From Bacteroidaceae bacterium (GTDB lineage: Bacteria; Bacteroidota; Bacteroidia; Bacteroidales; Bacteroidaceae): a stretch of 64,000 nucleotides of DNA. Numbering within the stretch: the first letter of the stretch is position 1; each line of letters starts with the position of its first letter. The DNA lies in assembly GCA_017483605.1 (NCBI GenBank), contig JAFUWG010000041.1, positions 62,001-126,000 of the forward strand, written 5' to 3'. Below the pieces are notes generated by a model that was given only the letters and a program-made list of their open reading frames with translations, did no database searches and was not told the DNA's origin. Shown piece after piece: positions 41,393-64,000 of the stretch. The translations under genes and the position numbers were made by a program.

Positions 41393-41394
41393 GT

Positions 41395-42667: not shown

Positions 42668-44041
42668 TTATTCGGTTACTGTGTTCGTTTTCAAACTGTT
42701 CGTGATTTCCGTCATCTTCTTCTTAGTGAGCGGATAAGCAAGCAAGACAATCAACATGCTGGCTGCGATGCCTGCAGGAATCCAACTCATCGTGAGTTTC
42801 ATGCCGAGGATGGCGCTGTCTGCCTGCTCCACCGCATTGGGCACAAGACCAAAGGCATCAAAAATCATCAGCACAGCCGAACCAGCCACGGCACCACCGA
42901 GTTTCTGGGCGAAAGAGCCTGACGAGAAGACGAGGCCCGTGCAGTTGGCGTTGTCCTTCCAGCGAGCATAGTCTGCCACGTCTGCATACATCGACCAAAC
43001 CAATGGGCTGATGATACCCGTGAAGATGCTAATGATAATCTGGAGCAGCAACATCGTGATGAAACCGCCATTGGTGCAAGGCACATAGAAGAAGAGAACG
43101 CTGAAGACGATGAGGGCGATGGCAGAGAGGATGAACGTCGATTTCTTGCCAATCCGCTTGGAGATGGGCACGGCGGTCACCACGCCAATCATGTTGCACA
43201 CTTCGCCCACTGCCAGGAACAGGCCTGCGAAGAAGAGGAAGGCGGTGAAGCCGAGGTCGATGTGTACGTTCTCGCCGATATAGTACTTGAAGTAGTAGGC
43301 AACGCTCGAACCACGCACGGTGTTGAACAGGTTGGTGCCCACCGATGCCAAGGTCAGAATCCACCAAGGCAGGTTGCTCAGCAAGGACTTGAAGTCGTTG
43401 CCCAAGCCTGTCGGGGAGACCTTGATGTGCTCCCGTGTCAAAGCGAAACTGGTCAGGAACAAGACCAGACACATGCAAGCGATGACAATCATGGCGCTCT
43501 GCCATCCGTCTGTCAGCGAGCCTGTTGCCTCCTTGAAGTAGTCGCACAGAGGCTCCCATGCGAAGAGAGCGATGAACGAGCCGCCGTATGCGAAGAACAT
43601 ACGGAAGGAAGAGAACACCGTCTTCTCGTCCGAGTCGTTGGTCATCACGCCCAGCATGGATGCATAGGGCACGTTGATGCCCGTATAGACCGTCATCATG
43701 AGGATGTAGGTGAAGTAAGCCCAGATGAGTTTGCCGTTCTGGTCGAGGTCGGGCGTGGTGAAGAGCAGCACGCCGGCGATGGCGAACGGTGCGGCAAACC
43801 ACAACAGGTAGGGGCGATACTTACCCCATCGAGTTTGTGTGCGGTCGGCAATCACGCCCATCATCGGGTCGCTCACCGTGTCCCAGATTCGGGTGACGAA
43901 CATGAGGGTTGCCGTCTGAGCAAGACTCAGTTCAAATACGTCGGAATAGAATATCGGAAGATAGTAACTGAAAATCTTCCAGAACATGGAACTCGACGTA
44001 TCGCCAAGTCCGTAGCCAATTTTTTCTTTGAGTGAAGCCAT
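42668..44041 (-). CDS. GPH-family mannobiose/manno-oligosaccharide symporter
   Basis: 457 aa, about 12 transmembrane segments. IGYGLGDTSSSMFWKIFSYY at the N-terminus and MMGVIADRTQTRWGKYRPYL after helix 2 are GPH-family signatures. The order GH26, GH130, this transporter, epimerase is that of the B. fragilis mannan cluster, so mannobiose is the probable substrate. It has its own promoter (44071-44101) and a leader of about 25 nt, so it starts a second transcript in the locus. Confidence 0.92.
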   Translation of the reverse strand: MASLKEKIGYGLGDTSSSMFWKIFSYYLPIFYSDVFELSLAQTATLMFVTRIWDTVSDPMMGVIADRTQTRWGKYRPYLLWFAAPFAIAGVLLFTTPDLDQNGKLIWAYFTYILMMTVYTGINVPYASMLGVMTNDSDEKTVFSSFRMFFAYGGSFIALFAWEPLCDYFKEATGSLTDGWQSAMIVIACMCLVLFLTSFALTREHIKVSPTGLGNDFKSLLSNLPWWILTLASVGTNLFNTVRGSSVAYYFKYYIGENVHIDLGFTAFLFFAGLFLAVGEVCNMIGVVTAVPISKRIGKKSTFILSAIALIVFSVLFFYVPCTNGGFITMLLLQIIISIFTGIISPLVWSMYADVADYARWKDNANCTGLVFSSGSFAQKLGGAVAGSAVLMIFDAFGLVPNAVEQADSAILGMKLTMSWIPAGIAASMLIVLLAYPLTKKKMTEITNSLKTNTVTE

Positions 44042-44158: not shown

Positions 44159-45358
44159 TTATTGGAGATTCACACGATTCTTTGCCACTAATTTCTTAAT
44201 TGTCTCCACAGAGGCTGCGGTGGTGAAGCCATCTTCCGGTGTATTCATGCAGTAGTCGATGAGTTTGCCGATGGCCGATTCAGCCACGTGCATACGGGTG
44301 TCGCTCGATGCGTAGTAGATGAGCACCCGCTCATCGTCGGTGTGGAGACCGTCTGTCGGGTTGCCGTCGGCAATCCAGCCATTGGCAAACGCCACGTTCA
44401 TCACATCGCCGATATATTCCCAGCCCTCAGGCACCAGGAAGTAGCCGCCGGGTTGTGCGATGACACGGGTAGGGTCGTCGAGGGCAGTCATGTACATATA
44501 TAATACGTAGCGGAGTCCGCTGGCGCAACCACGCACGCCATGTGCCAAGTGCAGCCAGCCCTTGGTGGTCTTGATAGGGTGAGGGCCTTCGCCGTTCTTC
44601 ACCTCCATGATGGTGTGGTAGTGGCGGGCATTGATAATCTTCTCGTCGGTCACCTCGGCGTGTTCGATGTCGTCCACCAGTCCCCAGCCGATGCCGCCAC
44701 CCGAACCGGTGTCGATGAAACCATCCTGCGGACGGGTGTAGAAAGCATATTTGCCATCCACAAACTCGGGGTGCAGCACCACGTTGCGCTGCTGGCTCCG
44801 GCTCTTCAGGTCGGGCAGACGCTGCCACGTCTTGAGGTCCTTCGTGCGGGCGATGGCGGCAGTGGCGGTGGCGGCACTGAGGTCGCCCGGCTGGCTGTCG
44901 TCGTGACGCTCGGCACAGAACACACCGTAGATCCAGCCGTCCTCATGGGCGGTCAGACGCATGTCGTAGATGTTGGTGGCGGGAATCACGTCGTCGGGCA
45001 TGGTGATGGGCTCGCCCCAGAAGCGGAAGTTGTCCACCCCGTTGGGCGACTCTGCCACGGCGAAGAAACTCTTGCGGTCGGCTCCCTCCACACGCACCAC
45101 CAGCAGATACTTGCCCTGCCACTTGATGGCGCCGCTGTTCAGCGTGGCGTTCATCATAATACGCTGCATCAGGTAGGGGTTGTCCTGCTCGTTGAAGTCA
45201 TAACGCCACTCCAGCGGCGTGTGCTCGGCGGTCAGGATGGGAAACTCATATTTGTCGTAAATTCCGTTGCCCCACTCTTTCTTCACGTTGGGGCGTGTGA
45301 GCAGTTCCTCGTGATGGGCACGGAGAGCCTGCACTTTCTGTTCAAACTGTGCTGACAT
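44159..45358 (-). CDS. GH130 mannosylglucose phosphorylase
   Basis: 399 aa. Phosphorolyses 4-O-beta-D-mannosyl-D-glucose to mannose-1-phosphate and glucose (GH130 subfamily 1). Five-bladed propeller with NPYLMQRIMMNATLNSGAI (about 61-79), KYLLVVRVEGADRKS, the catalytic Asp region ATNIYDMRLTAHEDGWIYG, and phosphate-binding ENVVLHPEF-like (NVVLHPEFVDGKYAFYTRPQ) and HYHTIMEVKNGEGP strands. Cytoplasmic, no signal. It starts right after the GH26 gene (4 bp) and is followed by a promoter of its own downstream unit. Subfamily assignment is supported by the adjoining 2-epimerase. Confidence 0.95.
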   Translation of the reverse strand: MSAQFEQKVQALRAHHEELLTRPNVKKEWGNGIYDKYEFPILTAEHTPLEWRYDFNEQDNPYLMQRIMMNATLNSGAIKWQGKYLLVVRVEGADRKSFFAVAESPNGVDNFRFWGEPITMPDDVIPATNIYDMRLTAHEDGWIYGVFCAERHDDSQPGDLSAATATAAIARTKDLKTWQRLPDLKSRSQQRNVVLHPEFVDGKYAFYTRPQDGFIDTGSGGGIGWGLVDDIEHAEVTDEKIINARHYHTIMEVKNGEGPHPIKTTKGWLHLAHGVRGCASGLRYVLYMYMTALDDPTRVIAQPGGYFLVPEGWEYIGDVMNVAFANGWIADGNPTDGLHTDDERVLIYYASSDTRMHVAESAIGKLIDYCMNTPEDGFTTAASVETIKKLVAKNRVNLQ

Positions 45359-45362
45359 ATTT

Positions 45363-46511
45363 TTACTTTACTTTCTTGATATCGTTGAGTAACAGGAATG
45401 ACTTTTCGTTCGACCACACCTTGAAGTCGTCGGCTGTGGTCGTCTCTTTGGCAGCACCGAAGTGCTCTTTCTTCCAGTTGCGCCAGGGCAGGAAGTAGCA
45501 CACGGGGAACTGCTCGATGACGGGGCGGAACACCCGTGTCCACCACGTCGCGTCGGGCGAGTTTTGGTAGCCGCACTCCGTCATGGCGATGAGTTTGCCG
45601 TGCTCCTTGGCAATTTTCGTGATGAGCGTGAGGTCGGCGGTGAGTCCTTTCACAAAGTCCGCCTCCGAGCCCCATTGGTAGGCATCCTCGCCAATGAGGT
45701 CCACGCGGTCGTCGCCCGGATAGCGACGCAGCCACGCCTCTTCCGTCCAGTTGCCCTGCAAGTTGGGCGAATACGACCACACGATGCTGGTGGGCAGGAT
45801 GCCGTTGATGTAGTCCTGCGTCATGTTCCACAGGGCGTGATACTCCTCATCCGAGCAGAGATTCTGTCCCCACCAGAACCACGAACCGTTGTTCTCGTGG
45901 TAAGGGCGGAAGATGACGGGGATGGGGTTGCCCTTCGCGTCCTTCAGCGTGGCGAGGAAATCGCCCACCCGCTTCAGCCATGTCATATAGGTGGCGTGGT
46001 GGCTTCCCCCTGCCAGAATGCTTTTCACCGTGTTCTTCGGGTTGAGCACCTGCTTAGCCAAGTCGCCCTGCCCTATCTTCTGCAAGGCGGCAACCGCCTC
46101 GTTGTAAGCCGTTGTGTCGTTCTGAATCCATGCCGTCGTGCCGAGCATCGGATTGCGTGGATGCCACGAGATGGTGACGATGCCGCCACGCTGGTGGTGT
46201 GCCACGATTTCCTTTCGCATACGGTCGAAGGGTACGCCGTCGAGGTTCTTCTGGTCAGCACGCTCGATGCCGCCCAGGTCGAAGCCCATCACGGCAGGGT
46301 AGTCGCCCACCAGTTCCTTCGTGTCGGAACGGCCCTCGTCCCATTCCCACGAGATGCCATAGAACGGGTCGTCCTGATGACCATACATGTAACCTTTCTT
46401 CTGCAACTTTTGCAGACGCTCCAGCAGTTGCTGAGCCGGCGTTTTCGGTGCTGCCTGCAATCCGCAAGTCATCGCCATTGCCACAGCCAGTATAACCATT
46501 TTCATTTTCAT
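45363..46511 (-). CDS. GH26 beta-1,4-mannanase, exported
   Basis: 382 aa. Signal peptide about 1-20 (VILAVAMAMTCGLQA); a Cys at 16 makes a lipoprotein possible but the lipobox is poor. Family 26 barrel: GYMYGHQDDPFYG (40-52), acid/base Glu206 in FRPYHENNGSWFWWG, nucleophile Glu312 in IAMTECGYQNS. It releases mannobiose or manno-oligosaccharides from mannan or glucomannan, feeding the transporter, epimerase and GH130 encoded downstream. A long structured leader (about 215 nt) precedes it. Confidence 0.95.
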   Translation of the reverse strand: MKMKMVILAVAMAMTCGLQAAPKTPAQQLLERLQKLQKKGYMYGHQDDPFYGISWEWDEGRSDTKELVGDYPAVMGFDLGGIERADQKNLDGVPFDRMRKEIVAHHQRGGIVTISWHPRNPMLGTTAWIQNDTTAYNEAVAALQKIGQGDLAKQVLNPKNTVKSILAGGSHHATYMTWLKRVGDFLATLKDAKGNPIPVIFRPYHENNGSWFWWGQNLCSDEEYHALWNMTQDYINGILPTSIVWSYSPNLQGNWTEEAWLRRYPGDDRVDLIGEDAYQWGSEADFVKGLTADLTLITKIAKEHGKLIAMTECGYQNSPDATWWTRVFRPVIEQFPVCYFLPWRNWKKEHFGAAKETTTADDFKVWSNEKSFLLLNDIKKVK

Positions 46512-49006: not shown

Positions 49007-49160
49007 GGTAAAATCTACAATATTGTATGCAAAGTAACGACTTTTATTTGATTCAAACAAGAATTTTGGCCTCAAAAGGTCAACATAGTATAGGAAATAG
49101 TTATAATTTGCAAAGAGAATGCTTGTTTGTTTCACCTTTTTTTGTAATTTTGCAACTGAT

Positions 49161-50642
49161 ATGAAATCTACCGGTAAAACACAGCGTGTAAAAAAACTAT
49201 TGAAACCCCTGCTCATCCTCCTGTGGGGAGTGGCGTGTTTCCTTTTCTTCCAGACGCAGTTCCCCTACCATTTCTTCTACGAGGAACAGAACCAGTTGTT
49301 CCTGATGGATTGGGGGTATGTCAGCACCTATTTCGACAAACCAGCATGGCTGGCTTGCCTCGTGGGTGACTTCCTTACACAATTTTATTACTACCTCTAT
49401 GCAGGGGCCGCCATCCTGACGGTGTCGCTGCTGATTCTGGGCGACCTCATCCGTCGATGTTTCGAGCGTTGCTTTGAAGGCCATCGCCGCATGACGCTGC
49501 TCGGATGGATTGCCTTCGCCCTTGCCATCGCCGCCATGACGCTGGAGGCTCGGCTTTCCATCTACGAAGGCTACAAACTGGGCTGCATCATCGCATTGAT
49601 AGGCAGCACCGCCTTGTGGTATGCCCACAGCACACTGAACGAATGGGCACACCGATGGTGGGTGCATACCCCCACGCTGCTGGTGCTCGTGCCGCTCACC
49701 TACTGGCTGTTCGGCTTCGGATTGGTCGTGGTGTTCATGTTCGAGATTTTGCGAATCGCTCTCCTGCCCCGCAAGTCGCGTTGGTGTTACACGGCACTCA
49801 TCCCCTTCTGCCTGGCTGCGATGTTGCCCAACATCTTCATGCACAAAGTGTCCGAGCACTATTGCCTCGGCAAACGAGAAGTCATGCTCTATCCCAGCGT
49901 CATCAATTGGGTGGATTATGACCAAGCCGTCATCTTGGAACGCAACTTTGCCTACGACAACGAATACTATTTCGGCCACTACGAGAAGGTCATCCAGATG
50001 TACGAATCGAACACCGAGCCAGAGACCGAGGAGATGTGTTTCTTCTACTGCCTCTCGCTGGCACAACTCGACCAACTGCCCGACAAACTGATGACGATGA
50101 AGAACCCTGTGCTTGGCACCTTCTACAAGATTGGTCCCGACACACCGCTCTACACCACGAAGATGATCAACGAACTCTACTACCTGCTGGGCGATATGAC
50201 CTACGCCGAGCGTGCCGCCCTGCTTGCCAACACGTTCTCTCCCCACGGACGTAACGTGCGGATGGTCAAGCGGTTGGCAGAGACCAATCTGGTGAAGGGT
50301 GACGACGCGGCGGCGATGAAGTACCTGCGTCTGCTCAGCAAGACCTGGGTGTATCGCCAATGGGCAGCCAACCACACCCCCGGCACGATGACCGATGCCG
50401 TGCGGCAGGAAGTGGCTCGCAAGCGGCAGTTCATCAATAAGACCGACCACATCCGTGTGGGCGATGACTGCTACACCATCCTGACTCAGTTGCTCGACAG
50501 CAACCCTGCCAACACCGTTGCCCTCGACTACCTCTTGTGCAGCGACATCGTGGCACGTCAAAAGGAGGTCTTCCATCGCGACTACGAGAAATACGGACCT
50601 CGCCAAAAGGCACTTTATCAGCAAGCACTTTCCCTCGAATGA
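49161..50642 (+). CDS. Polytopic membrane protein with TPR-like tail, paralogue 1
   Basis: 493 aa. One of three paralogues; I recall this family as DUF6057 but could not verify. About ten hydrophobic segments fill residues 10-235. After the first comes the paralogue signature FPYHFFYEEQNQLFLMDWGY, then FLTQFYYYLYAGAAI. Residues about 240-493 are soluble and helical, TPR-like, with LAETNLVKGDDAAAMKYLRL LSKTWVYRQW matching the other two paralogues. I chose ATG 49161 (MKSTGKTQRVKKLLK) over 49119, whose extra residues are not membrane-like. A TAATTTTG box at 49145-49152 would start RNA almost at this ATG. The stop overlaps the start of the propeller lipoprotein gene as ATGA, so the two are translationally coupled. 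Confidence 0.8.
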   Translation: MKSTGKTQRVKKLLKPLLILLWGVACFLFFQTQFPYHFFYEEQNQLFLMDWGYVSTYFDKPAWLACLVGDFLTQFYYYLYAGAAILTVSLLILGDLIRRCFERCFEGHRRMTLLGWIAFALAIAAMTLEARLSIYEGYKLGCIIALIGSTALWYAHSTLNEWAHRWWVHTPTLLVLVPLTYWLFGFGLVVVFMFEILRIALLPRKSRWCYTALIPFCLAAMLPNIFMHKVSEHYCLGKREVMLYPSVINWVDYDQAVILERNFAYDNEYYFGHYEKVIQMYESNTEPETEEMCFFYCLSLAQLDQLPDKLMTMKNPVLGTFYKIGPDTPLYTTKMINELYYLLGDMTYAERAALLANTFSPHGRNVRMVKRLAETNLVKGDDAAAMKYLRLLSKTWVYRQWAANHTPGTMTDAVRQEVARKRQFINKTDHIRVGDDCYTILTQLLDSNPANTVALDYLLCSDIVARQKEVFHRDYEKYGPRQKALYQQALSLE

Positions 50643-52081
50643 CGAAACATCTGCTCTACATCCTCGCCCTCATCCTCACACTCGCCGCCTGCACCTCTTC
50701 GCCTCACGATGCACGACAGACCGACGAGGCGGCACCGATGTATCCCGACTATGCCGATGTGACCATCCCCGTGAACATCGCACCGCTCAATTTCCTCCTG
50801 CGGGACAACGTTTCACGCGTGTGCGTATATATAAATAATGTGGAGTTCGCCAATCAGCGTGGCAACGAGGTTGTCTTCGACCTCGAAGCGTGGCGAACGT
50901 TGCTGGCAGCCAACCAGGGCAAGACGCTTGAGGTGCAGATTGTGGCAGAAGATGCCGACGGATGGAAAGCCTACAAGCCGTTCCGCTGGACGGTGACTGC
51001 CGACCGTGTGGACCCTTATCTCACGTATCGCTTGATTGAGCCAGACTATGAAGTGTATAACAACCTGGTGCTGCAAGAGCGATGCGTCGAAAACTTCAAG
51101 GTCAGAAACTTTGCCGACTACGGCATGGTGGGCAACCAGTGCATGAACTGCCATACCTACGCCCATCAGGAGGCTGGCATGTCGATGTTCTACCTGAGGG
51201 GGCAAGACGGTGGTGCCATCTTGAATGACAAGGGCAAGTTGACCAAGTTGAACCTGAAGCGTGACGACATGGTGAGCGGCAGCGTCTATTTTGGCTTCTC
51301 GCCCTCCGACCGCTACGTGGTCTTTTCTACCAATGTCATCATTCCCGCATTCCACTCCTTGGGCAGCAAGCGGATGGAGGTGTTCGACACCAAGAGCGAC
51401 GTGTATGTGGCAGACCTGACCCACCACGTTTTCATCGACAGCCCCCTGCTTGCCGACAGCACCAGACTGGAGACCTTCCCCACTTTCTCGCCCGATGGCA
51501 AGTACATCTACTACTGCACCGCCCATCGGCTCGACTCGCTGGGTGGGTTGACCTCGCTGAAGTATAGCCTGTGTCGCATTCCCTTTGACGAAGAGACCGG
51601 CAAAATCGGCACGGACGTGGACACCATCTACAATGCCCGAACAGCGGGCAAGAGCGTCTGCCATCCTCGCATTAGCCCCGACGGGCAGTTCCTGGTCTAT
51701 ACCGTTGCCGACTACGGCACCTTCCCCATTTGGCACCGCGAGTCAGACCTCCAGATGATGAACCTCAGCACGGGCGAGGTGAGCGATATGCCGAAGGTGA
51801 ATTCTGCCATGTCGGACACCTACCACTCGTGGTCGTCCAACAGCCGCTGGCTTGCCTTCGCCTCGAAGCGTGACGACGGGCTGTATGGCAAGGTTTACTA
51901 TACCCACATTGACAAAAAAGGCGTGTGCTCGAAGCCGTTTGTTTTGCCTCAAGCACACCCCAGTTTTTATGATAACAGTTTGAAATCTTTCAACGCCCCC
52001 GAGCAGGGGAATGGGCGTCTGCCATTCTCCGTCACTGACGTACAGAAAGTTTTATCCGCTTCGGCGATAGAATTTCGTTAG
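50639..52081 (+). CDS. CxxCH beta-propeller lipoprotein, paralogue 1
   Basis: 480 aa. Lipobox LTLAACTSS (Cys18). An N-terminal Ig-like region (about 33-125) starts with the paralogue signature YPDYADVTIPVNIAPLNF. CMNCH at 168-172 is a single c-type haem-binding-like motif (C168, C171, H172). The rest (about 185-450) is a TolB/PD40-like propeller: GFSPSDRYVVFSTN, FPTFSPDGKYIYYCTAHR, PRISPDGQFLVYTVADYGTF, HSWSSNSRWLAFASKRDDGL. Start at 50639 overlaps the membrane-protein stop by 4 nt. Its 3' end overlaps the converging paralogue 2 by 50 bp. Role unknown; envelope-anchored, probably periplasmic or surface. Confidence 0.85.
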   Translation: MTKHLLYILALILTLAACTSSPHDARQTDEAAPMYPDYADVTIPVNIAPLNFLLRDNVSRVCVYINNVEFANQRGNEVVFDLEAWRTLLAANQGKTLEVQIVAEDADGWKAYKPFRWTVTADRVDPYLTYRLIEPDYEVYNNLVLQERCVENFKVRNFADYGMVGNQCMNCHTYAHQEAGMSMFYLRGQDGGAILNDKGKLTKLNLKRDDMVSGSVYFGFSPSDRYVVFSTNVIIPAFHSLGSKRMEVFDTKSDVYVADLTHHVFIDSPLLADSTRLETFPTFSPDGKYIYYCTAHRLDSLGGLTSLKYSLCRIPFDEETGKIGTDVDTIYNARTAGKSVCHPRISPDGQFLVYTVADYGTFPIWHRESDLQMMNLSTGEVSDMPKVNSAMSDTYHSWSSNSRWLAFASKRDDGLYGKVYYTHIDKKGVCSKPFVLPQAHPSFYDNSLKSFNAPEQGNGRLPFSVTDVQKVLSASAIEFR

Positions 52082-53504
52082 CCACCTGCCGAGCATTGAT
52101 TTCCACCTTCGTCTGGGTGAAGTCGGGCGTGTTGTAACTGTACATCAATCGGTCATAAAATCTTCGTGGATTCCGCTGCGGCAGCATGAACGGCTTCGTG
52201 GCATGACCCTCGTCGTCCATCGCCGAGAGGTAGAGCCGTGTATAAAGCCCGTCGTCGCGGCGTGAGGTGAAGACAAACCAGTGGCTGTTGGTGTTCCAGT
52301 TGTGGAAACTGTCGCTCTCGGGGCTGTTCACCTCGTCCATGCGGCGGGTCTCGCCTGTGCGGAGGTCGAGCAGCCAGAGGTCGGCTTCCTGATGCCAGAT
52401 GGTGAAGGTGCCATAGTCGGCGAGGGCATACATGATGTATTTGCCGTCGTAGGAAGGACGGGGGAAGGTGACGCTGGTGCTGTCGGCCTCGGCACGGATG
52501 AGCGTGTCCACCTGTGTGCCGAACGTGCCTGTTGCGGCATCGAAAGCGATGGAACAGAGGTTGTAGCGGACGATGCGGGCTTCCAGCGGATAGGAACGCC
52601 TCACGGTGGTGCAGAAATAGAGGGTCTTGCCATCGGGCGAGAAGACGGGGAAGGTCTCGTTGCTGTCCGTCGTCTTCAGCAGCGGAGAGAGCAGGAGTTG
52701 GTTCGTCTCGGTGTCCAGCACTTGCAGGTCGCTCACGTGGTCGAACACCTCAATGCGTTCGTCCCTCACCACGTGGAACGCCTGTCGGGTGGTGTTGGTG
52801 GAGAAAGCCACATACCGCCCGTCGGGATGCCAGTAGGGATAGACACACAGTCCCAGCGTCTGGTCGGTCTTCGTGTCCAGCATGTCCATTTTGCCGTCTT
52901 TCTGGAGAGCCGTTGCCCCGTTTTCGCCACGCACGTGGAAAAGAAATTCCTTGGGGTCGGTGCGGTTGCTGGTGTGGCAGTTCACACAAGCCCCGGGGGC
53001 ACGGGTGTTGTCGATGATTTCATACTCGTCGAACGTCGAGAGGTCTCGCTGATACAGCCCCATCTGGCTATACACCTCGTAGCCCGGAGCCACACGGCGG
53101 TAGGTCAAGCCCCATTCGTCCAGGGCGTATGGGCTGACGTACATGGGGAAGTCCTTGTATTGCGTCCACTTGCCGTCAGCCTCCACACACAGGGTGAAGG
53201 TCAGTTCCCCACCCTTGTTCTGCTCCACCAACGCGTGCCACTCGTCGAGGTCGAAGTCCACGAGGCTTCCGTTCGAGTGTACTTCCCCACCCTTGCTGCC
53301 TCGCACCACCACATCGAGGCACTGGTACTCACCCCCCTCATAGTCAAAGTTCATCGGTGCGATGCCCACGGGAATGGTCACGCCGATGTAGTCGGGATAG
53401 ATGTCGGGCAGGGTGTCCACCACCTGTGCGTTCTTCACCTCGTGGGAGCAGGAGAAGAGCAGCAACACCATGAGCAACGTGCAGCAAAGAGGGCTTCTAT
53501 TCAT
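52032..53504 (-). CDS. CxxCH beta-propeller lipoprotein, paralogue 2
   Basis: 490 aa. Lipobox LLFSCSHEV (Cys19). Same layout as paralogues 1 and 3: YPDYIGVTIPVGIAPMNFDY (36-55), GKWTQYKDFPMYVS (111-124), YRRVAPGYEVYSQMGLYQRD (135-154), CVNCH at 173-177, then PD40-type blades YPYWHPDGRYVAFSTN, FPVFSPDGKTLYFCTT, PRPSYDGKYIMYALADYGTF and HNWNTNSHWFVFTSRRDDGL. It is closer to paralogue 3 than to 1. The last 50 bp overlap the 3' end of paralogue 1 on the other strand. 193 bp with A/T direct repeats separate it from paralogue 3 upstream. Confidence 0.85.
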   Translation of the reverse strand: MNRSPLCCTLLMVLLLFSCSHEVKNAQVVDTLPDIYPDYIGVTIPVGIAPMNFDYEGGEYQCLDVVVRGSKGGEVHSNGSLVDFDLDEWHALVEQNKGGELTFTLCVEADGKWTQYKDFPMYVSPYALDEWGLTYRRVAPGYEVYSQMGLYQRDLSTFDEYEIIDNTRAPGACVNCHTSNRTDPKEFLFHVRGENGATALQKDGKMDMLDTKTDQTLGLCVYPYWHPDGRYVAFSTNTTRQAFHVVRDERIEVFDHVSDLQVLDTETNQLLLSPLLKTTDSNETFPVFSPDGKTLYFCTTVRRSYPLEARIVRYNLCSIAFDAATGTFGTQVDTLIRAEADSTSVTFPRPSYDGKYIMYALADYGTFTIWHQEADLWLLDLRTGETRRMDEVNSPESDSFHNWNTNSHWFVFTSRRDDGLYTRLYLSAMDDEGHATKPFMLPQRNPRRFYDRLMYSYNTPDFTQTKVEINARQVANEILSPKRIKLSVRQ

Positions 53505-53520
53505 GTGCTAATATCGTTCT

Positions 53521-53604
53521 TAAAATTAAACTTAAATTTTATAAAACTAAACCTTGATTCTAATAAAATTAAACTTAAATTTTATAAAACTTAACTTTAA
53601 TTTT
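53521..53604. repeat. 43-bp direct repeat, two copies
   Basis: The first 27 bases from 53521 recur identically from 53564 (both start TAAAATTAAACTTAAATTTT), and the following 15 are similar. Very A/T-rich. It fills the gap between propeller genes 3 and 2; regulatory or processing role unknown. Confidence 0.75.
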
Positions 53605-53697
53605 AAGAGAGTCTCCACGTCTGGTCAAAAACACGGGTCAAAAACGGCGATTTTGTCCTATTTTCACACGTTCTTGCGAGGTTTTTGCCTCTGTGGG

Positions 53698-55170
53698 CTA
53701 CCGCATTTTCACTTTCACCTGCACGCGTCCGTTGTCCAAACACTCGCGGCTCGCCTTTCGGGCGTCGAACTGCACCTTCTCCTGGGTGAAGTCGGGACAG
53801 TTGTAAGAATCGAGCATCAGGCGGTAGAACTTCTTCGGGTTGCGTTGCGGCAGGAGGAAGGGCTTGGTGGCGTGACCCTGGTCGTCGATGCCGGCAAGGT
53901 AGGCATGGGTGTACATGCCGTCACCTCGACGGGAGGAGAAGACGAACCAATGGCTGTCGGTGCTCCAGTTGTGAAAACTGTCCACGTCGGGGCTGTTCAC
54001 CTCATGGAGTGGACGGGTGGCACCTGTCTGCAAGTCCATCAGCCAAAGGTCTGCCTCGGCATGGTTGACAGGGAAGTTGCCAAAATCGGTGACGCCATAC
54101 ATGAGCCACCTGCCGTCGTAGGAAGGACGGGGGAAGGTGAAACTCCTGTGGAGCGTCGCGGCACTCAGCAAGGTATCTACCTCGGTGCCAAAGGTGCCGT
54201 CGGCAGGGTTGAAGGCAATCCGGCAGAGGCTGTATTGGGGCTTGTCGTACTCGCGGGGTACGTTGTAAGGCTTTGAGGTGCAGAAATAGAGCGTCTTGCC
54301 ATCAGCCGAGAAGACAGGATAGGTCTCCCAGTCGGTGGTTTGCAGCAGGGGGCAAAGCAGCAGTTCGTTGGTGCGGACATCCATGACCAGCACATCGCTC
54401 ATCGTGTCGTACACCTCGATGCGGCGGTCTTTGCCGACGAAGAAACTCTGGTGGATGCTGTTGATGGACGTGGCGAGAAAGTTGCCCGAGGGGTGCCAAT
54501 AACTGTAGCCAAAGTTGGCTTTGGTGCTGTCGGTCTTGGTGTTGAGCCACGTCTGCTTGCCATCGGTCTGGATGACCGTGCCGCCCTTGTCGCCTCGCAG
54601 ATGCAGGAGAAACTGGTGGGCACTGGCTCGGTTGGCGGTGTGGCAGTTCATGCACTGCCCGGGCACCGCCGACTCTTGCAGGATGGGCGACTCGTCGAAC
54701 GTGTGGAGGTCACGCTGATAGATGCCGATGTTGCCTCCCACCTCATAGCCAGGGGCGATGCGACGGTAGGTGATGCCGTAGTCGGTGAGGGGATGGCGGC
54801 TGATGTGGATGGGGAAATCCTGATATTGTGTCCACTTGCCATCTTGCAGCACCGACACGGTGATGCGGATGTCGCCTCCCTCGTTCCGGGCGGTCAGTTG
54901 ATGCCAATCGTCGATGTCGAAGTCAGCAAACTCGCCCTGCACGTGCAGTTCACCGCCTTTGCTGCCCTTTGCCACCACGTCCATCAGGTCTATGCGGTCA
55001 TCCACCATGTTGAAGTCGAGCGGAGCCATGCCGACGGGGATGGTCACGCCGATGTAGTCGGGGAAAATGGGGGGCTGTTCCGATGCGAGGGTCGGATTTT
55101 CCACGGGTTTCATGCACGAGGCAAGAAGCAGGGTGGCAAGCAGGATGACAGGTAGGAAAAACTTTTTCAT
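53698..55170 (-). CDS. CxxCH beta-propeller lipoprotein, paralogue 3
   Basis: 490 aa. Lipobox LLASCMKPV (Cys19). FPDYIGVTIPVGMAPLDFNM (36-55), GKWTQYQDFPIHIS, YRRIAPGYEVGGNIGIYQRD, CMNCH at 173-177 (identical position to paralogue 2), then propeller blades YSYWHPSGNFLATSIN, YPVFSADGKTLYFCTS, PRPSYDGRWLMYGVTDFGNF and HNWSTDSHWFVFSSRRGDGM. ATG at 55170 chosen because it begins the signal peptide; an in-frame ATG 16 codons upstream lies in the preceding gene. It follows the membrane paralogue 2 by 7 bp in one operon. Confidence 0.85.
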   Translation of the reverse strand: MKKFFLPVILLATLLLASCMKPVENPTLASEQPPIFPDYIGVTIPVGMAPLDFNMVDDRIDLMDVVAKGSKGGELHVQGEFADFDIDDWHQLTARNEGGDIRITVSVLQDGKWTQYQDFPIHISRHPLTDYGITYRRIAPGYEVGGNIGIYQRDLHTFDESPILQESAVPGQCMNCHTANRASAHQFLLHLRGDKGGTVIQTDGKQTWLNTKTDSTKANFGYSYWHPSGNFLATSINSIHQSFFVGKDRRIEVYDTMSDVLVMDVRTNELLLCPLLQTTDWETYPVFSADGKTLYFCTSKPYNVPREYDKPQYSLCRIAFNPADGTFGTEVDTLLSAATLHRSFTFPRPSYDGRWLMYGVTDFGNFPVNHAEADLWLMDLQTGATRPLHEVNSPDVDSFHNWSTDSHWFVFSSRRGDGMYTHAYLAGIDDQGHATKPFLLPQRNPKKFYRLMLDSYNCPDFTQEKVQFDARKASRECLDNGRVQVKVKMR

Positions 55171-55177
55171 GGGCGGG

Positions 55178-56812
55178 TTAGTGTGCGGAAATGGATGTAT
55201 CGTCGGGCACGGCGGCATGGCGGGTCTGCTTCATGCGTTGCACATACGAGGCGTAGGGGGAGCCTGGCACGTTGCCCTTCGCCTGGATGCACTTCATGAC
55301 ATCCTGATAGGTGTAAGGCATCACGGCATAGCCGCCGTAGTGCTGTGCCCAAGGCAGATATTGCTGAAAACCAGCCATGTCGCCCTTCAGGAGCAACTGG
55401 GCAAGGAAATAGTCGAGTGCCATCTTGTTCTCCGGATTGTTGATGAAGAGATTGCCCAGCATCTTGTCCAGTTCGCCGTAATTATACAGGAAGTCGTTCT
55501 GGTAACGGAGTTTGCGGATTTTGCCCCATTGCGGATGGGCGTCTATCCATGCCTCGTTGCCGAGGTAGGTCTTGGCGTCCTTTGCCCACTCGCGGTAGAA
55601 AAGGGACTGTTCGAGCAGGGTCAGATACTTCTCCGCCACGGCATACTTGCCGTTGATGATGCAGCACTCGGCGATGCGTTTCATGAGTCTGCCACTCTTC
55701 TTGCCATTGAGGATACTCTCCTGAAGGTCAAAGGCATAACGCATGGACTCGTTGACCATGCCCAAGCGATAGAAGGCTTCCATCGTGGGGAGGTTGGACG
55801 TGAGGTCGCGCACCATCGGCATGATGAGGGCATCCTCGCCGCTCTGGAAGAAGGCAAACTGGCGTTGCGACAACTGCCCCGTCATGGCAAGGGAGAGATT
55901 GACACATTCGGAGGAGAAATTGACGGGCACCTGGTGTTTCTCGGCACGGCTGATGACCTCCTGCCAACGTTCGTTGCGGACGAGGTAATCTTGGCGAATC
56001 AACTCGTACTTGTCTTCGTCAAACCTGAAAAAGATACACATCACGGCGATAATAGCCAAGGCGGCGACACGCCAACGGCCGTAGGTGCCGAGTTTGTGTC
56101 CCCATGCTGCCAAAATGAGAATGGCGACGGGGATAAGTACCTGAAGAGGCGGCACCTGCAGGGGGATTCGGTAATAGTTGACGCCGCACATGGAGGTGAC
56201 AAAGGGCCACTGAGAAAGCAGCGTGTGGGACACAAGCAACTGAATCGTGAGCAGGTAGAGGAGGACTCCCGCCGTTTGCCAGTTCTTTCGTTGGATGAGT
56301 CGAAGCCCGACATACAGCCATGTGGCAGGGCCAATCAACAGATAGAGCACGGGCACGGTCAGCAGGTCGAAAAGATAGTGTGCCTTTCGCATCACCACGC
56401 TCATGCTCATGGCGAGCAGCAGGGCAACGACGTAACTCAACAGGACGCTCTCGTCGCCCATGTGTACGTGCAGCAAGGCGGCGGGAATGAGTGCATACCA
56501 GATGTTGTCCACGAACTTCGTCGTCAGCAAGAAAAACGCAACGAACAGCAGGGCGAGCACGAGTGCCCCCAGCCATTCAACGTAGTAGAACTGCACGAAG
56601 AACTCGCCGAGCCAATCTGCCAGTCCGCCTACTTGCCAGATGTCTTGAAGGAGATAGTCGCCTGTCCACAAAAAGAGTTGGTACTGCTCTTGATAGGACA
56701 ATGCGTGTGGATAGCATAGCCACCAAAAGAGGAAGACGCTCACGCCGACAACCAACGTGACGGCTGCCGTCAGGAATGACGGGGAGAGGTTTTTCAAACT
56801 TTTACTGCTCAT
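55178..56812 (-). CDS. Polytopic membrane protein with TPR-like tail, paralogue 2
   Basis: 544 aa. Signature YPHALSYQEQYQLFLWTGDY at about 34-53 and GGLADWLGEFFVQFYYVEWL right after; about ten transmembrane segments to residue 265, including HVHMGDESVLLSYVVALLLA. From about 268 (RFDEDKYELIRQDYLVRNER) a helical soluble domain with ECCIINGKYAVAEKYLTLLE and GEFLYNYGEL-like (NDFLYNYGELDKMLGNLFIN) units. Overlaps the end of paralogue 3 upstream by 11 bp and is followed 7 bp later by propeller 3. Possibly a scaffold or transporter for the propeller; no catalytic motif seen. Confidence 0.8.
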   Translation of the reverse strand: MSSKSLKNLSPSFLTAAVTLVVGVSVFLFWWLCYPHALSYQEQYQLFLWTGDYLLQDIWQVGGLADWLGEFFVQFYYVEWLGALVLALLFVAFFLLTTKFVDNIWYALIPAALLHVHMGDESVLLSYVVALLLAMSMSVVMRKAHYLFDLLTVPVLYLLIGPATWLYVGLRLIQRKNWQTAGVLLYLLTIQLLVSHTLLSQWPFVTSMCGVNYYRIPLQVPPLQVLIPVAILILAAWGHKLGTYGRWRVAALAIIAVMCIFFRFDEDKYELIRQDYLVRNERWQEVISRAEKHQVPVNFSSECVNLSLAMTGQLSQRQFAFFQSGEDALIMPMVRDLTSNLPTMEAFYRLGMVNESMRYAFDLQESILNGKKSGRLMKRIAECCIINGKYAVAEKYLTLLEQSLFYREWAKDAKTYLGNEAWIDAHPQWGKIRKLRYQNDFLYNYGELDKMLGNLFINNPENKMALDYFLAQLLLKGDMAGFQQYLPWAQHYGGYAVMPYTYQDVMKCIQAKGNVPGSPYASYVQRMKQTRHAAVPDDTSISAH

Positions 56813-58391
56813 GGGTCTCGCCTCCTTCGTCGGGGTTTGGGTTGGGTTCTTGCGATTGCATGATGCGTTGCACGAAGTTCCTGTACATCATCAACTTCTG
56901 CTGGTCGCCCTCCAAGACGGGCAGGAAGAGCAGGTACTGGATGGCAAGGTAGTTGTCCTTGTTCTGCATGACGAGTTGGCCCATGATTTTGTCCAACTCT
57001 TGCTCGCTGAAGAGGAAATCGTGGGTGAGCCGCAGTTGCCGCATACGGCCATACGTGGGGTGTTGGTTGATGGCGTCTTCATCGCCAAGCAGGGGCAAGG
57101 TCTGCTCTGCCCACTTCTTGTAGAAGAGGGTTTTCTGCAAGATTTTCAGGTATTTGCGTGCCACGGCATACTGTCCGTTGATGAGGTTCGTTTCAGCCAA
57201 TCGTTTGACCAAACGAGCACTTTTGTTGTTGTCGGGAATGGCTTCCATCGCCTCGAAATCAAGTCGTTGGGCGGTATTGACAAGTCCCAACTGGTAGTAA
57301 ATTTCGGCGGTGACGATGGACGACTCAAAGTTCTTGTTGAACGACGGAAACGCCCCTTGCCAACCGTTCTGATAGAACTGCATCCCACGGTTGTTCAACT
57401 CGCCTCTCATGCCGAGGGCAAGGTTGAGGGAGGCAACGGAAAGCGGCAAGTCGGGCTGCTTTTTCTCGGCAATGGCAACAATCTTGTCCCACTGCTGGCT
57501 GCGTACCAACAGGTCGTAGCGGAGAATCTCGTAAGTGGCGTCGTTGAATGCAGATGGAATGCCGAAAATGCCCGCCAGTGCCAAGGTGACCGTAGAAACG
57601 ATGGCAACGGTGCGGGCTTTCTTCCCTTCGAGGTCGGGCAGGAAGTGCATCAAAAGCGGCAAGAGCACACACACCGCCATGATGAAGCACTGCATGAGGG
57701 AGATTTCGGGAATGACAAGGTTATAGTTGATGCCATAGAAAAGTCGATAGAGGGGGTATGGCACAAAGGGGGCACACAGCAAGATGCTGGCGACGGAAAA
57801 GAGTGCGGAAAAAAGGGAAAGGGGATAATGCTGATGACGGAGTGCTTCTTGCCATGCGGCATAGAGTCCCAACATCAACACCACAGGTCCTGCCACCCAA
57901 TGCAGCAGGGGCAGGACGATGAGCAGATAGAGGCTTCGGAATAAAGGGGAACGGCGGTAAGGATAGGCAACGATGGCAACCATTGCCAACAGCAATGCCA
58001 CGGCGTAAGTGAGTTTCACGTTCTCGTCGCCCATGTAGAACCACAGCATCAAGGAAGGAAGAAAGGAAAGCGGATACCATGAGCGGCTGCTGTTTTCTCT
58101 TCGTATGAGCCGCCACGTGAGCACTTGCAGAAGCACATACAGGAGGGCAAGAATGATGCTTCCTGCCGCCAAGTTGTTGTCGAATTGAACCAGAAATTCA
58201 GCCAAATAGCGAGCGATGCCGCCAGGTGCGGACATGCGGTCTGCCAGATATTCACCATCGAAAAGGAAAAGTTGCAACTGCTCTTGGTATGCCAGTGCCT
58301 GCGGATAGCGAAGGTACCAAAAGAGGAATGCTGACACGCCCAACAGCAGTGACAGAAGACAAGGAGAATATTTGGTCAGAAAGGCTTTCAT
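56802..58391 (-). CDS. Polytopic membrane protein with TPR-like tail, paralogue 3
   Basis: 529 aa. Signature YPQALAYQEQLQLFLFDGEY at about 29-48, GGIARYLAEFLVQFDNNLAA, then transmembrane segments including FYMGDENVKLTYAVALLLAM. The soluble C-terminal half has LAETNLINGQYAVARKYLKI LQKTLFYKKWAEQTLPLLGDED, aligned with the other paralogues, and ends in a short Pro/Asn/Glu-rich tail. Starts 2 bp after the DUF4369-like gene and overlaps paralogue 2 by 11 bp. Tandem duplication with paralogue 2 is likely. Confidence 0.8.
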   Translation of the reverse strand: MKAFLTKYSPCLLSLLLGVSAFLFWYLRYPQALAYQEQLQLFLFDGEYLADRMSAPGGIARYLAEFLVQFDNNLAAGSIILALLYVLLQVLTWRLIRRENSSRSWYPLSFLPSLMLWFYMGDENVKLTYAVALLLAMVAIVAYPYRRSPLFRSLYLLIVLPLLHWVAGPVVLMLGLYAAWQEALRHQHYPLSLFSALFSVASILLCAPFVPYPLYRLFYGINYNLVIPEISLMQCFIMAVCVLLPLLMHFLPDLEGKKARTVAIVSTVTLALAGIFGIPSAFNDATYEILRYDLLVRSQQWDKIVAIAEKKQPDLPLSVASLNLALGMRGELNNRGMQFYQNGWQGAFPSFNKNFESSIVTAEIYYQLGLVNTAQRLDFEAMEAIPDNNKSARLVKRLAETNLINGQYAVARKYLKILQKTLFYKKWAEQTLPLLGDEDAINQHPTYGRMRQLRLTHDFLFSEQELDKIMGQLVMQNKDNYLAIQYLLFLPVLEGDQQKLMMYRNFVQRIMQSQEPNPNPDEGGETHEQ

Positions 58392-58393
58392 CC

Positions 58394-59029
58394 TCAGTCA
58401 AGCGGAAATTCTTGGATGGTGCCGTCGGGCATCTTGCGTTTGTAACTGGTGGGGAACATGCCACCAAGAAAGTCTTTCAGAGGACCGTCGGGAAGACCTG
58501 CCGCCATCTTTCGGGTCGCATCCTTGTAGGCATGATGCACGCTGTCGGCATGTGCCTTGACGCTGTTGGCGCGGAGGGAATCGCCCGAGAAGTGAGCATC
58601 TTGGTACATGGAGATCAGTTGACCATATTGCTTGTTGTGTACCTCGGTCATCTGCTTCCAGTTCTGCAGCACGTCATTGTTCTTCGTGCCATGACCGCTA
58701 CTCACCGAGTCGATGGTGACATACAGGTCGCCGGGCTCTTCCACCACCAGGAGGTCTTGCAAGCCGAAACGGAAATGGTAATCCATGCGGATGATACCCA
58801 TCATGTTCTTTCGGGTCGTTATCTCAAACTTTCGGTCTTTCACAAAGCACGAGTCGATGCCCACGCTGTCCCGAATGGTCTTGTCAAGTGCAATCAGGTA
58901 GATGCACTTCCCGTCATATTTGTCGTCGGGCAGCGTCCCATGGATACGGCACTTCCCCGCATCTTCTTTGCACCCTGCCAACATGAGCGTCAGTATGCCG
59001 AGAGCCACAAATAAAGTTCTTTTCATCAC
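58394..59029 (-). CDS. DUF4369-like lipoprotein
   Basis: 211 aa. Lipobox LMLAGCKEDAG (Cys about 20). Beta-rich core CRIHGTLPDDKYDGKCIYLI, DSCFVKDRKFEI, DLLVVEEPGDLYVTIDSVSS resembles DUF4369, the N-terminal domain that in many Bacteroidota proteins precedes a thioredoxin-like domain. Here the thioredoxin part is absent and replaced by a helical region (MTEVHNKQYGQLISMYQDAH) and a short tail. First gene of the leftward operon with two membrane paralogues and two propellers. A TATATTTG box lies on the minus strand at 59054-59047. Confidence 0.75.
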   Translation of the reverse strand: MMKRTLFVALGILTLMLAGCKEDAGKCRIHGTLPDDKYDGKCIYLIALDKTIRDSVGIDSCFVKDRKFEITTRKNMMGIIRMDYHFRFGLQDLLVVEEPGDLYVTIDSVSSGHGTKNNDVLQNWKQMTEVHNKQYGQLISMYQDAHFSGDSLRANSVKAHADSVHHAYKDATRKMAAGLPDGPLKDFLGGMFPTSYKRKMPDGTIQEFPLD

Positions 59030-60336: not shown

Positions 60337-60598
60337 AAGTACACATCGGGGTTAGCCTTCTTGTTCCTGTCATGCGACTGCTCCTTATCTTGTGTTTGAT
60401 TTCCTCCGTAGTTACCGTATTATCCATAGGGAGTTGCCACAACTCCGTTGTCATTTGTTCAAACAACGCATCTGCCTTGCCACCCCGCTCCTCAGCCTCT
60501 GCCTGTTCCATCAGATGAGCAGCAAGCCAACGCTTGTTACTGCCACTCAACATACTGAGTGACTGTAAAATTCCATCAAGTGATATAGTTGCGTTCAT
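60323..60598 (-). CDS. Antitoxin of the PIN-domain toxin
   Basis: 91 aa, helical and acidic in the middle (HLMEQAEAEERGGKADALFE). It precedes and overlaps the vapC-like gene by 14 nt and has its own promoter. It lacks an obvious AbrB or RHH motif; similar unclassified short antitoxins (NKRWLAAHL type) accompany many Bacteroidota toxins. Confidence 0.7.
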   Translation of the reverse strand: MNATISLDGILQSLSMLSGSNKRWLAAHLMEQAEAEERGGKADALFEQMTTELWQLPMDNTVTTEEIKHKIRSSRMTGTRRLTPMCTYGEL

Positions 60599-62231: not shown

Positions 62232-64000
62232 CTAATAAAGTTTCTTGTAGGTAGCCTCTGCAACATCCCAACCGGCATTTTGCTTCATGGCACCATTAGA
62301 GAGTTGTACCTGTGCCTCAGGCTTAGGCAGGAAGCCCTTTGTCTGTACGTAGCGAGTTGCCCATGATGAGGTCATGTGCTTCATCTTCGTCCATGTACCC
62401 ATCACGTTGATGTCCTGTCCGTCCTGCTTCTGCAAAGCCTGGCAAATCTCAGAGTTAGCATCAGCATTGATACCTGACCAGCGACGGAGGTCCTGATAGC
62501 GGAGACCCTCGAAAGCCAACTCGAAGCGACGTTCGTTCTTGATGTTCTGCCAAGTGTAACTGTGGCTTGGCAGACCGACACGTGCACGCACCTGATTCAT
62601 GTACTGAGCATCGCCCGTCAACTCTGTGAGCATCAGCAGCACGTCAGCATAGCGAATCAGATAGTAGTCCTCGTAGTGACCTTCCTGCATGTTGTTAGCA
62701 CCAGACTTGCCACCCCAGCCTTCTTCGAAAGCCCACCAGGTGTAGTCGTCGGTCTGACCCCATGTCTGAACCTTCGAACCGTCGGCGTTAGAGAGGGCAG
62801 TCACAGTGATGTACTTCTTAGGAGCGAAGCCTCCGTCTTCTGTACAAGAAGTGGTGAACACGTAGTGCTCGAGGTCGTTCTGACAGTCGATGACGGAAGC
62901 CTGACGGCGTGGGTCAGCCTTGCCGTCCACGGTCTCAGCGTTCTTCCAGTCATTGATCATGTTAGGAGCCACAGGGCTCATACCCCAACCCTGACCGAAT
63001 GGGAAGGTGTTTGCCTCACCATTTACCAAGCCAGAACCAGCAGCGTCGTCGTTACAACGGAGTCCGCTATAAAGTGAGATGTAGTTGGTGTAAGCCAGAG
63101 GATAGAGTGTCTGAGGGTCACCTGCATAAGTAGCAGCGTTGCCGAAACGAATCTGGAAGATTTCCTCTGCACAGCCGTTCTTGAACATCTCGGTCATGTC
63201 CTGGATGTAAGGATAGTCCTTCTTGATGACACGGTTAGAATACTGCCAGAGTGAGCGATAGTCAGCCATCAGTTGGTAGCCACCGTTGGTTACCACGTCT
63301 TGCAGAGCAGCCACTACGGCATCCTTGGTGAGTGTCGTGTTGTCAACACCTTCCTGAGCAACCAACTCCACGGGTGCAAGGCTGGCTTTTGCCAATTCGC
63401 CTGCCTCCTTGTAGAAGCCCTGATAGAACATGTAGGCACGAGCCAGAAGAGCCTCGGCGGCATACTTGGTGGCATGACCGTCAATCTTCTTGTTCATCAA
63501 CTTAGATGCTGAAACGAGGTCGGAGAGAATCTGTGGGAAGATTTCGTTCTCGGCACTGGCATCTGGGCATGGGTTTGGCACCGTTGTTGATGTAATCAAT
63601 GGAATATCGCCAAAGTGCTGCGTGAGCCAGAATGTGTAGAGAGCACGCATAAAGTAACCCTCGCCACAAGCCTGATTGCGGGCGTTTGTATCGCCATTCC
63701 ACTCCACGTTGTCAATCGTGGAAATCAGTGCATTGGCACGAGCAATACCCTTGTAGCCTTGCTGCCAGAAGTTATCGTAGGCACCTGCATTGAAGAGCGT
63801 GTAGTGCTCGATTGCCTTAGGTGCGTCGTCACCATCGCCGCCACCGCCGAAGCAGTCGTCGGACATCATATCGTCAACGTAGTATGGCATCTCCAATGGG
63901 AAGTTGTTCATGTTGTTCATCACACCATAGGTAGCCGCCAACTCATTGTTCACGTCGTTCACCGTTGCAGGGAAGTTCGACGTGTTTTGTTTTGTATAAC
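62232..64000 (-). CDS. susD: SusD/RagB lipoprotein, 5' end outside window
   Basis: About 589 codons in the window; the frame stays open to base 64000 (upstream of a GTG at 63962 it reads TSNFPATVNDVNNELAATYG). SusD marks: GYKGIARANALISTIDNVEW, EGYFMRALYTFWLTQHFGDI, YAAEALLARAYMFYQGFYKE, and YYLIRYADVLLMLTELTGDA with NIKNERRFELAFEGLRYQDL RRW near the C-terminus. It delivers glycan to a SusC expected just outside the window. Substrate unknown. Confidence 0.93.
   Translation of the reverse strand, partial: YTKQNTSNFPATVNDVNNELAATYGVMNNMNNFPLEMPYYVDDMMSDDCFGGGGDGDDAPKAIEHYTLFNAGAYDNFWQQGYKGIARANALISTIDNVEWNGDTNARNQACGEGYFMRALYTFWLTQHFGDIPLITSTTVPNPCPDASAENEIFPQILSDLVSASKLMNKKIDGHATKYAAEALLARAYMFYQGFYKEAGELAKASLAPVELVAQEGVDNTTLTKDAVVAALQDVVTNGGYQLMADYRSLWQYSNRVIKKDYPYIQDMTEMFKNGCAEEIFQIRFGNAATYAGDPQTLYPLAYTNYISLYSGLRCNDDAAGSGLVNGEANTFPFGQGWGMSPVAPNMINDWKNAETVDGKADPRRQASVIDCQNDLEHYVFTTSCTEDGGFAPKKYITVTALSNADGSKVQTWGQTDDYTWWAFEEGWGGKSGANNMQEGHYEDYYLIRYADVLLMLTELTGDAQYMNQVRARVGLPSHSYTWQNIKNERRFELAFEGLRYQDLRRWSGINADANSEICQALQKQDGQDINVMGTWTKMKHMTSSWATRYVQTKGFLPKPEAQVQLSNGAMKQNAGWDVAEATYKKLY

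Follow-up and report, generated by a model that had tools for sequence, protein, structure and literature searches.

Membrane proteins of the family DUF6057 and a class of propeller lipoproteins bearing a single CxNCH motif form, as judged from their sequences, a real and widespread two-protein envelope module, and this module is unnamed in the literature that we searched. Three copies of each partner, together with one DUF4369 lipoprotein (D4), make up a block of seven open reading frames (ORFs) at 49161-59026 of the window, by which we mean the whole 64,000-nucleotide stretch analysed here (Bacteroidaceae bacterium, assembly GCA_017483605.1, contig JAFUWG010000041.1, positions 62,001 to 126,000). 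We refer to the membrane proteins as MP and to the propeller lipoproteins as PR. Our favoured explanation is that MP and a haem-bearing PR would form a redox or sensing bridge across the periplasm, and we give this explanation as a whole a probability of about 0.45. The ORFs of the block and their putative haem-c motifs, the latter being readings of the sequence, are as follows.

49161..50642, + strand: MP1, DUF6057 membrane protein of 493 residues (PF19529, E 4.2e-106); its cognate is PR1, which the partners of the six nearest MP1 relatives match best
50639..52081, + strand: PR1, lipoprotein with PD40 repeats (E 7.4e-14) and one CMNCH; overlaps the MP1 stop
51140..51154, + strand: CMNCH, putative haem-c motif of PR1
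52032..53504, - strand: PR3, propeller lipoprotein with CVNCH (PD40, E 1.7e-12); cognate of MP2
52974..52988, - strand: CVNCH, putative haem-c motif of PR3
53698..55170, - strand: PR2, propeller lipoprotein with CMNCH (PD40, E 2.4e-5); cognate of MP3
54640..54654, - strand: CMNCH, putative haem-c motif of PR2
55178..56812, - strand: MP3, DUF6057 membrane protein of 544 residues (PF19529, E 2.9e-130)
56802..58391, - strand: MP2, DUF6057 membrane protein of 529 residues (PF19529, E 1.1e-144)
58394..59026, - strand: D4, DUF4369 lipoprotein without a thioredoxin motif (PF14289, E 1.1e-6)

The three MPs score 356.5, 436.3 and 484 bits against DUF6057, for which the Pfam gathering cut-off is 29.8. 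In the three PRs, only PD40 exceeds its Pfam cut-off (E 7.4e-14 to 2.4e-5), and no second family does. None of the NCBIfam models matched any of the seven block proteins at its cut-off. The two motifs that a sequence-only reading of this DNA had described as shared, one among the MPs and one among the PRs, are both present in the block. That reading could name no function for any of these proteins; DUF6057 has no assigned function, and a literature search for DUF6057 and PF19529 found no paper. PR1 and PR3 are convergent, their 3' ends overlapping by 50 bp. An AT-rich spacer of 193 bp with repeated stretches (53505-53697) separates PR3 from PR2 and may hold a promoter or terminator; because of this spacer, PR3 may be transcribed on its own, separately from PR2.

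The partnership of MP and PR proposed in the sequence-only reading is well supported by their co-occurrence, adjacency and joint divergence. We scored 247 genomes, drawn evenly from the order, for DUF6057 over its cut-off (30 genomes) and for PR at E <= 1e-30 (29 genomes); of the 247, 29 hold both proteins, one (G515) holds MP only, none holds PR only and 217 hold neither (Fisher 6e-37; the Fisher values given here treat genomes as independent, which genomes are not, and some loci and survey genomes may be of the same or very near species). A survey of 296 genomes of the phylum yielded 24 DUF6057 matches, of which 3 are over the cut-off, confined to G000, G039 and G078; a full-length adjacent PR is found in the same three, the window's genome included. 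The PR profile matched at E 0.001 in 125 of these 296 genomes; among the matches listed, all but five are short, weak propellers, the five being three full-length PRs and two of a fused type, and the best of the rest has an E of 3e-10. Co-occurrence beyond the genus had been suggested as a check on the partnership. The outcome does not speak against it: in the order, PR is also present in 29 of the 30 MP-bearing genomes, and in the phylum 3 of the 296 genomes have MP and PR side by side.

For the study of gene order, related loci were gathered by a search with PR1, PR2 and PR3, in which the top 80 of 111 were retained and gave 79 loci of Bacteroidales or unplaced Bacteroidota. The ORF set comprises these loci, the window, two further stretches of the window's own genome and 42 other stretches, 40 of them taken for MP or PR and two for fused genes. 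Neighbourhood work left out L001-L012, which are short copies of own-genome genes, and pair counts left out L094, L245 and L246, which are copies of own-genome stretches. Among the 219 PR and 213 MP ORFs examined, an MP lies directly upstream on the same strand for 196 of the 219 PRs, and the gap between the two is -25 to +25 bases in 126 of these 196 adjacent pairs (with longest-ORF starts). Of the 23 PRs that have no upstream MP, seven lie where a contig breaks off (L032-L035, L061, L079, L221), four are explained by split ORFs, a gap of more than 400 bp or gene picking (L049, L050, L052, L053), two are in nested pairs (the window and L014) and two are of the distant fused type (L247, L248).

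The two families also diverge together. The distance matrices of MP and PR correlate with r 0.891 (187 adjacent pairs, with 51 loci having two or more), against r 0.394 (sd 0.034, maximum 0.542) when PRs were shuffled within loci 500 times, a procedure that keeps the species signal. This mirror test left out the window's own pairs, MPs shorter than 340 residues and PRs shorter than 400. The nearest six relatives of MP1, MP3 and MP2 have partners most like PR1, PR2 and PR3, respectively; for MP2, the six partners are 59-72% identical to PR3 and 49-53% identical to PR2. The window's three pairs are MP1-PR1, MP3-PR2 and MP2-PR3, and MP3-PR2 is nested within MP2-PR3, since MP2 and PR3 are the outer genes of the leftward run and MP3 and PR2 the inner ones. 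The same nested order is found in L014, where the outer genes are 65% identical to MP2 and 78% identical to PR3; L013 has the plain order MP-PR-MP-PR. The earlier proposal of co-duplication therefore stands insofar as MP and PR are duplicated as pairs, but the leftward operon, described as a duplicated MP followed by a second propeller, is really one cognate pair nested in another. We consider it likely from these patterns that the members of a cognate pair touch. Further, the pair-specific character of the joint divergence makes recognition directly testable by partner swaps.

Very probably, PR is a c-type cytochrome that faces the periplasm. A CxxCH motif is found in 195 of the 196 paired PRs, exactly once and always as CxNCH, versus 3 of 575 neighbouring ORFs longer than 300 residues; its presence in PR is thus not due to chance. 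In an alignment of 112 PR sequences (PR3 numbering), the C, N, C and H of this motif are kept in all 112, as are C19, P37, Y39, P45, P50 and F53. A histidine at position 401 of PR3 is kept in 111 of the 112, and by eye there is an equivalent in both fused relatives, which makes it a candidate for the second ligand. That PR carries haem c is the part of our explanation that we hold to be most likely. In the 247 order genomes, the cytochrome-c assembly family (Cytochrom_C_asm) is present in 29/29 of those with PR and in 178/218 of the others (p 0.004). CcsBA, the System II synthase, attaches reduced haem to CXXCH (PMC10663686, consulted in part). A CcsBA-like gene stands beside MP or PR in four loci, L064, L068, L070 and L076 (identified by a scan in L068 and, in the other three, by clustering with that gene), possibly amounting to two independent cases because L064, L068 and L070 look alike. 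In the window's own genome one cytochrome-c assembly match was counted, and a CcsBA-like gene, assigned by clustering, lies away from the block on contig C36 (L257). The haem or redox flavour of the respiratory or redox-sensing option that had been raised earlier is supported.

Hydrazine synthase alpha and cytochrome cd1 combine a propeller with c-type haem. PR is like these propeller cytochromes in joining a propeller to a c-type haem motif; in the three window PRs, no match to HZS_alpha or Cytochrom_D1 was reported by Pfam at E up to 1. PRs also share PD40 repeats with TolB and other PD40 propellers; TolB is not known to have a haem motif. We rejected the assignment of PR as TolB, as the matches to TIGR02800 reach 22.3-30.5 bits against a cut-off of 343.15. 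Comparison of PR with solved structures gave weak propellers only (best E 0.0019), and a literature search for a beta-propeller with c-type heme in a lipoprotein of Bacteroidetes found nothing.

Acidic export signals of surface lipoproteins have been described in Bacteroidetes (PMC5080379, consulted in part), and we scored them by a simple rule, which requires at least two acidic residues among positions +2 to +7 counted from the lipid cysteine. A signal so defined is present in 23/195 PRs and in 15/56 D4-type ORFs, versus 36/38 SusD and 38/46 SusE-like proteins of related loci. Since most PRs are without this signal, we predict that PR faces the periplasm; a surface-exposed PR is less likely, and the cell-surface role entertained by the sequence-only reading is not borne out. 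D4 itself was considered as a thiol oxidoreductase of the TlpA type, and this was rejected: no thioredoxin Pfam domain follows DUF4369, and CxxC occurs in 1 of 56 D4-type ORFs (own-genome copies being counted more than once).

What might MP contribute to such a pair? A simple hydropathy script gives MP2 seven membrane segments; by eye and by loop charge, we read about nine, with the N-terminus inside. By the same reading, the C-terminal helical domain of MP is presumed to be periplasmic. In an alignment of 104 MP sequences (MP2 numbering), E37 is kept in 103, Q38 in 100, Q40 in 98, F42 in 103 and Q69 in all 104. When MP is divided, the helical domain correlates with PR at r 0.896 and with its own membrane half at r 0.828 (168 full-length pairs, MPs shorter than 440 residues being left out). 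The partial correlation with PR is 0.685 for the helical domain given the membrane half and 0.274 for the membrane half given the helical domain. With the propeller alone, these values are 0.616 and 0.079, whereas with the N-terminal domain of PR they are close (0.437 and 0.391). Thirteen pairs in similar loci have an MP of only 351-356 residues, still upstream of PR, and the three such MPs that we read have a single N-terminal hydrophobic segment and the helical domain. The domain-wise correlations and the short MPs fit a docking of the helical domain on the propeller, and we regard the helical domain as probably, though less surely than the contact itself, the dock for PR.

Longer proteins like PR that end in TPR repeats and have no DUF6057 match were found in the phylum genomes G160 and G196. 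These single-chain relatives (L247 2608-4716 and L248 8174-10381) consist of an N-terminal hydrophobic segment, a CxNCH propeller and C-terminal TPR repeats, and no DUF6057 gene stands beside them; such a combination speaks for the explanation that we favour. An orphan short DUF6057 gene, with no PR nearby, occurs at L093 3956-5188 (contig C9 of the window's own genome); that of G515 is short too.

We propose the following mechanism. PR would be a lipid-anchored c-type cytochrome that remains in the periplasm, and a CcsBA-type synthase, whose gene lies elsewhere in the genome, would attach its one haem. MP would lie in the inner membrane and end in a periplasmic TPR-like helical domain; by docking the propeller of the cognate PR, this domain would bridge the two membranes. 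In the most speculative step, the haem would be a redox or ligand-sensing centre, whose state would be relayed via the helical domain to a conserved pocket of MP (E37-Q38-x-Q40, Q69). The module would serve the neighbouring mannan uptake here and other systems elsewhere. The redox or sensing role as such we put forward only tentatively. If the proposal is right, a membrane family that has gone unstudied gains a partner of its own, a probable cofactor and a geometry that can be tested.

Several points weigh against this bridge. Adjacent genes share their history, so joint divergence is no proof of contact, and shared history and unequal conservation could both contribute to the docking signal: the membrane half of MP is the less conserved one, which alone could lower its correlation. 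The thirteen short-MP pairs come from similar loci and may represent one event. Pfam evidence for TPR repeats in the helical domain consists of weak hits in a few members. In the membrane part of MP, no histidine or cysteine is conserved in at least half of the sequences, which makes it unlikely that MP itself is a haem-b or metal redox enzyme. The assembly-family test is weak because that family is common (207/247 genomes). The pairing also has its exceptions: in the sole MP-only genome of the order, G515, the DUF6057 gene is short and lies in a 387-residue frame; two of the six DUF6057 genes of the window's own genome, namely that on C9 and the second of those on C40, have no PR of their own; PR precedes MP in L232, L233, L236 and L241; the genes are divergent in L226; and no MP adjoins the PRs of L015, L086 and L209. 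We place the redox or sensing bridge ahead of its two rivals, an assembly factor and a GT-C-like transferase, which follow closely.

The surroundings of the block bear on whether the module belongs to its neighbourhood. The genes that define this setting are as follows.

62232..63998, - strand: SusD, running off the window (PF07980, E 1.2e-24); a SusC-like gene is next on the contig (L245)
60744..62207, - strand: SusE-like lipoprotein, which clusters with lipoproteins downstream of SusD in relatives
45363..46511, - strand: glycoside hydrolase family 26 (GH26), probable beta-mannanase (PF02156, E 7.8e-35)
44159..45358, - strand: GH130 mannoside phosphorylase (PF04041, E 6.2e-18)
42668..44041, - strand: major facilitator superfamily (MFS) sugar transporter (PF13347, E 1.3e-89)
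41395..42663, - strand: sugar 2-epimerase (PF07221, E 5.9e-34)
40436..41446, - strand: mannose-6-phosphate isomerase-like protein (PF20511, E 1.5e-8)
38174..40408, - strand: GH36 alpha-galactosidase (PF02065, E 1.5e-114)

On one flank, the block is followed by a DUF6169 gene, a PIN-type pair and then the SusE-like, SusD and SusC-like genes; on the other are a gene for a secreted-type protein of no known kind, a ParE-type pair and then the genes from GH26 to GH36 in the order listed. The SusE-like lipoprotein matches no Pfam family at E 0.01. A SusC/SusD pair with adjacent carbohydrate enzymes is thus present, as expected of a polysaccharide utilisation locus (PUL), the SusC being assigned by clustering and not by a Pfam scan of its own. 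The locus around the block is probably for beta-mannan, because GH26, GH130 and epimerase enzymes are among those with a demonstrated part in glucomannan processing by Segatella copri (PMC12704710, consulted in part). As in the glucomannan PUL 7 of that organism, SusC/D, GH26, GH130 and epimerase genes surround the block; by contrast, the word "cytochrome" is missing from the main text of that paper, and the parts consulted contain no mention of DUF6057 or of these lipoproteins. The sequence-only reading had mentioned neither the mannan setting nor the cytochrome-c assembly link, and we ourselves did not expect a probable c-type cytochrome amid the sugar-uptake loci of gut-type bacteria.

It is possible, at somewhat less than even odds, that the block is a passenger here, a general envelope module unrelated to mannan; this would be compatible with any of the mechanisms considered. 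The 40 MP/PR stretches, which come from 27 genomes of the order and phylum draws, have SusD nearby in only 13 cases. The module is therefore not restricted to sugar loci, and a second pair of the window's own genome lies outside any sugar locus, near genes that we take to be ileS and lspA. This stretch (C40) has the further MP-PR pair followed by an extra MP. On the other side, a SusD cluster is found in 45 of 83 related loci, where the pair is often directly behind SusC-SusD-SusE, and clusters of GH5, GH26 and GH130 are found in 16, 7 and 6 of them. These 83 loci favour close relatives, because they were found by similarity to the window PRs. D4 is frequent in loci close to the window; elsewhere it occurs in only 3 of the 40 stretches (L205, L212, L217).

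Another explanation, which we consider unlikely, is that MP is a dedicated assembly factor for PR, either a chaperone or a helper in haem attachment, and that PR is the working protein, such as a haem-dependent binding protein or a peroxidase-like enzyme. The close pairing, gene overlap and joint divergence would be accounted for, with the helical domain as the dock, as would the cytochrome-assembly-like gene that adjoins the pair in four loci; elsewhere, a di-haem peroxidase-like protein is encoded together with the chorismatase-like and CcsBA genes. However, 178 of the 207 order genomes with the assembly gene are without PR, and among these only G515 has a DUF6057 match that exceeds the cut-off; MP is thus dispensable for cytochrome-c assembly in general. 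The usual order of MP before PR is no proof of an assembly role.

It is similarly doubtful that DUF6057 is a GT-C-like glycosyltransferase, with E37 as an acidic catalytic residue in the first periplasmic loop and the helical domain positioning PR as acceptor, cofactor or regulator. The near-invariant E37 follows the first membrane segment, and both it and the helical domain are on the periplasmic side by loop charge, a topology that, we assume, resembles that of GT-C enzymes. A GDE-type second loop, which this explanation also invokes, is the majority form in MPs but is less than 80% conserved. Profile comparison of DUF6057 with PMT_2 and YfhO gave no similarity, but the positive control, YfhO against PMT_2, was equally unmatched, and the comparison therefore counts neither for nor against. 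Against a GT-C assignment, MP has no convincing match among solved structures (best E 0.074, to CbiQ); DUF6057 is the only family matching all 56 MPs scanned, any other occurring in at most three and TPR models matching weakly in a few (best E 0.014); and the lineage that is without the membrane part of MP keeps the pair. A role in anti-phage defence was rejected, as no PADLOC model matched at E 0.01 (0/7 block proteins).

The haem reading of the redox or sensing bridge has a wider genomic context. A family of proteins of about 300-440 residues, here called K3, resembles the FkbO/Hyg5 chorismatases (TIGR04444, best E 1.4e-38), yet its best score of 133 bits is below the cut-off of 325, and some members fit Rid-family models better. 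At E <= 1e-15, K3 is present in 43 of the 247 order genomes, comprising 26/29 with PR and 17/218 without it (Fisher 1e-20); the K3 profile was built of 13 rows, all from loci chosen for MP or PR, and may favour this association. Among the matches listed, a hand count places K3 within about 10 kb of MP or PR in 11 of the 26 genomes, and within 300 bases in 6. Of the 40 stretches taken around the pair, 8 contain K3, which also stands beside the fused PR-like gene in L247. Twenty stretches were chosen for K3 or an assembly gene and are thus no fair sample; 19 contain K3, and 11 of these also have a CcsBA-like gene. Other neighbours of K3 are di-haem peroxidase-like and propeller-cytochrome genes. 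Given its position near cytochrome-c genes and its presence in PR genomes, K3 seems to mark cytochrome-c gene groups of the order. This genome-wide link between cytochrome c and a chorismatase-like protein raises the separate question of the purpose for which these bacteria need such chemistry. Literature searches for chorismatase, and for c-type cytochrome with imelysin, in Bacteroid- taxa returned nothing on these subjects, as judged by titles and the beginnings of abstracts. One could imagine a haem-c signalling or electron-transfer family spanning the periplasm of Bacteroidales, in which each DUF6057 protein would read its own haem propeller, the pairs would serve different nutrient loci and the cytochrome-c branch would depend on a chorismate-derived compound made by K3; we regard so broad a scheme as improbable.

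Some minor features of these regions may be recorded. A ParE-type toxin gene and a PIN-domain gene, each together with a small upstream partner that has no Pfam match (48390-49216 and 59917-60598), bracket the block, and the DUF6169 protein is encoded at 59119-59634, between D4 and the PIN-type pair. K3 genes are found at L257 8651-9799 (C36 of the window's own genome), L212 13384-14544 and L240 12311-13477. The first of these closes a cluster at L257 788-9799 that comprises a gene for a protein of no assigned kind, imelysin-, di-haem-oxidoreductase- and porin-like genes (labels given by clustering), a gene for a small CxxCH protein, the CcsBA-like gene and K3; much of this cluster recurs in L249, L258, L260, L261, L263 and L264. 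In L254-L256, K3 and CcsBA-like genes stand beside a propeller-cytochrome gene and one for a protein of about 1330 residues, which, as scanned in L255, has FGE-sulfatase, HZS_alpha middle and NPCBM domains; the genes downstream are presumably dihydroxyacetone-kinase-like.

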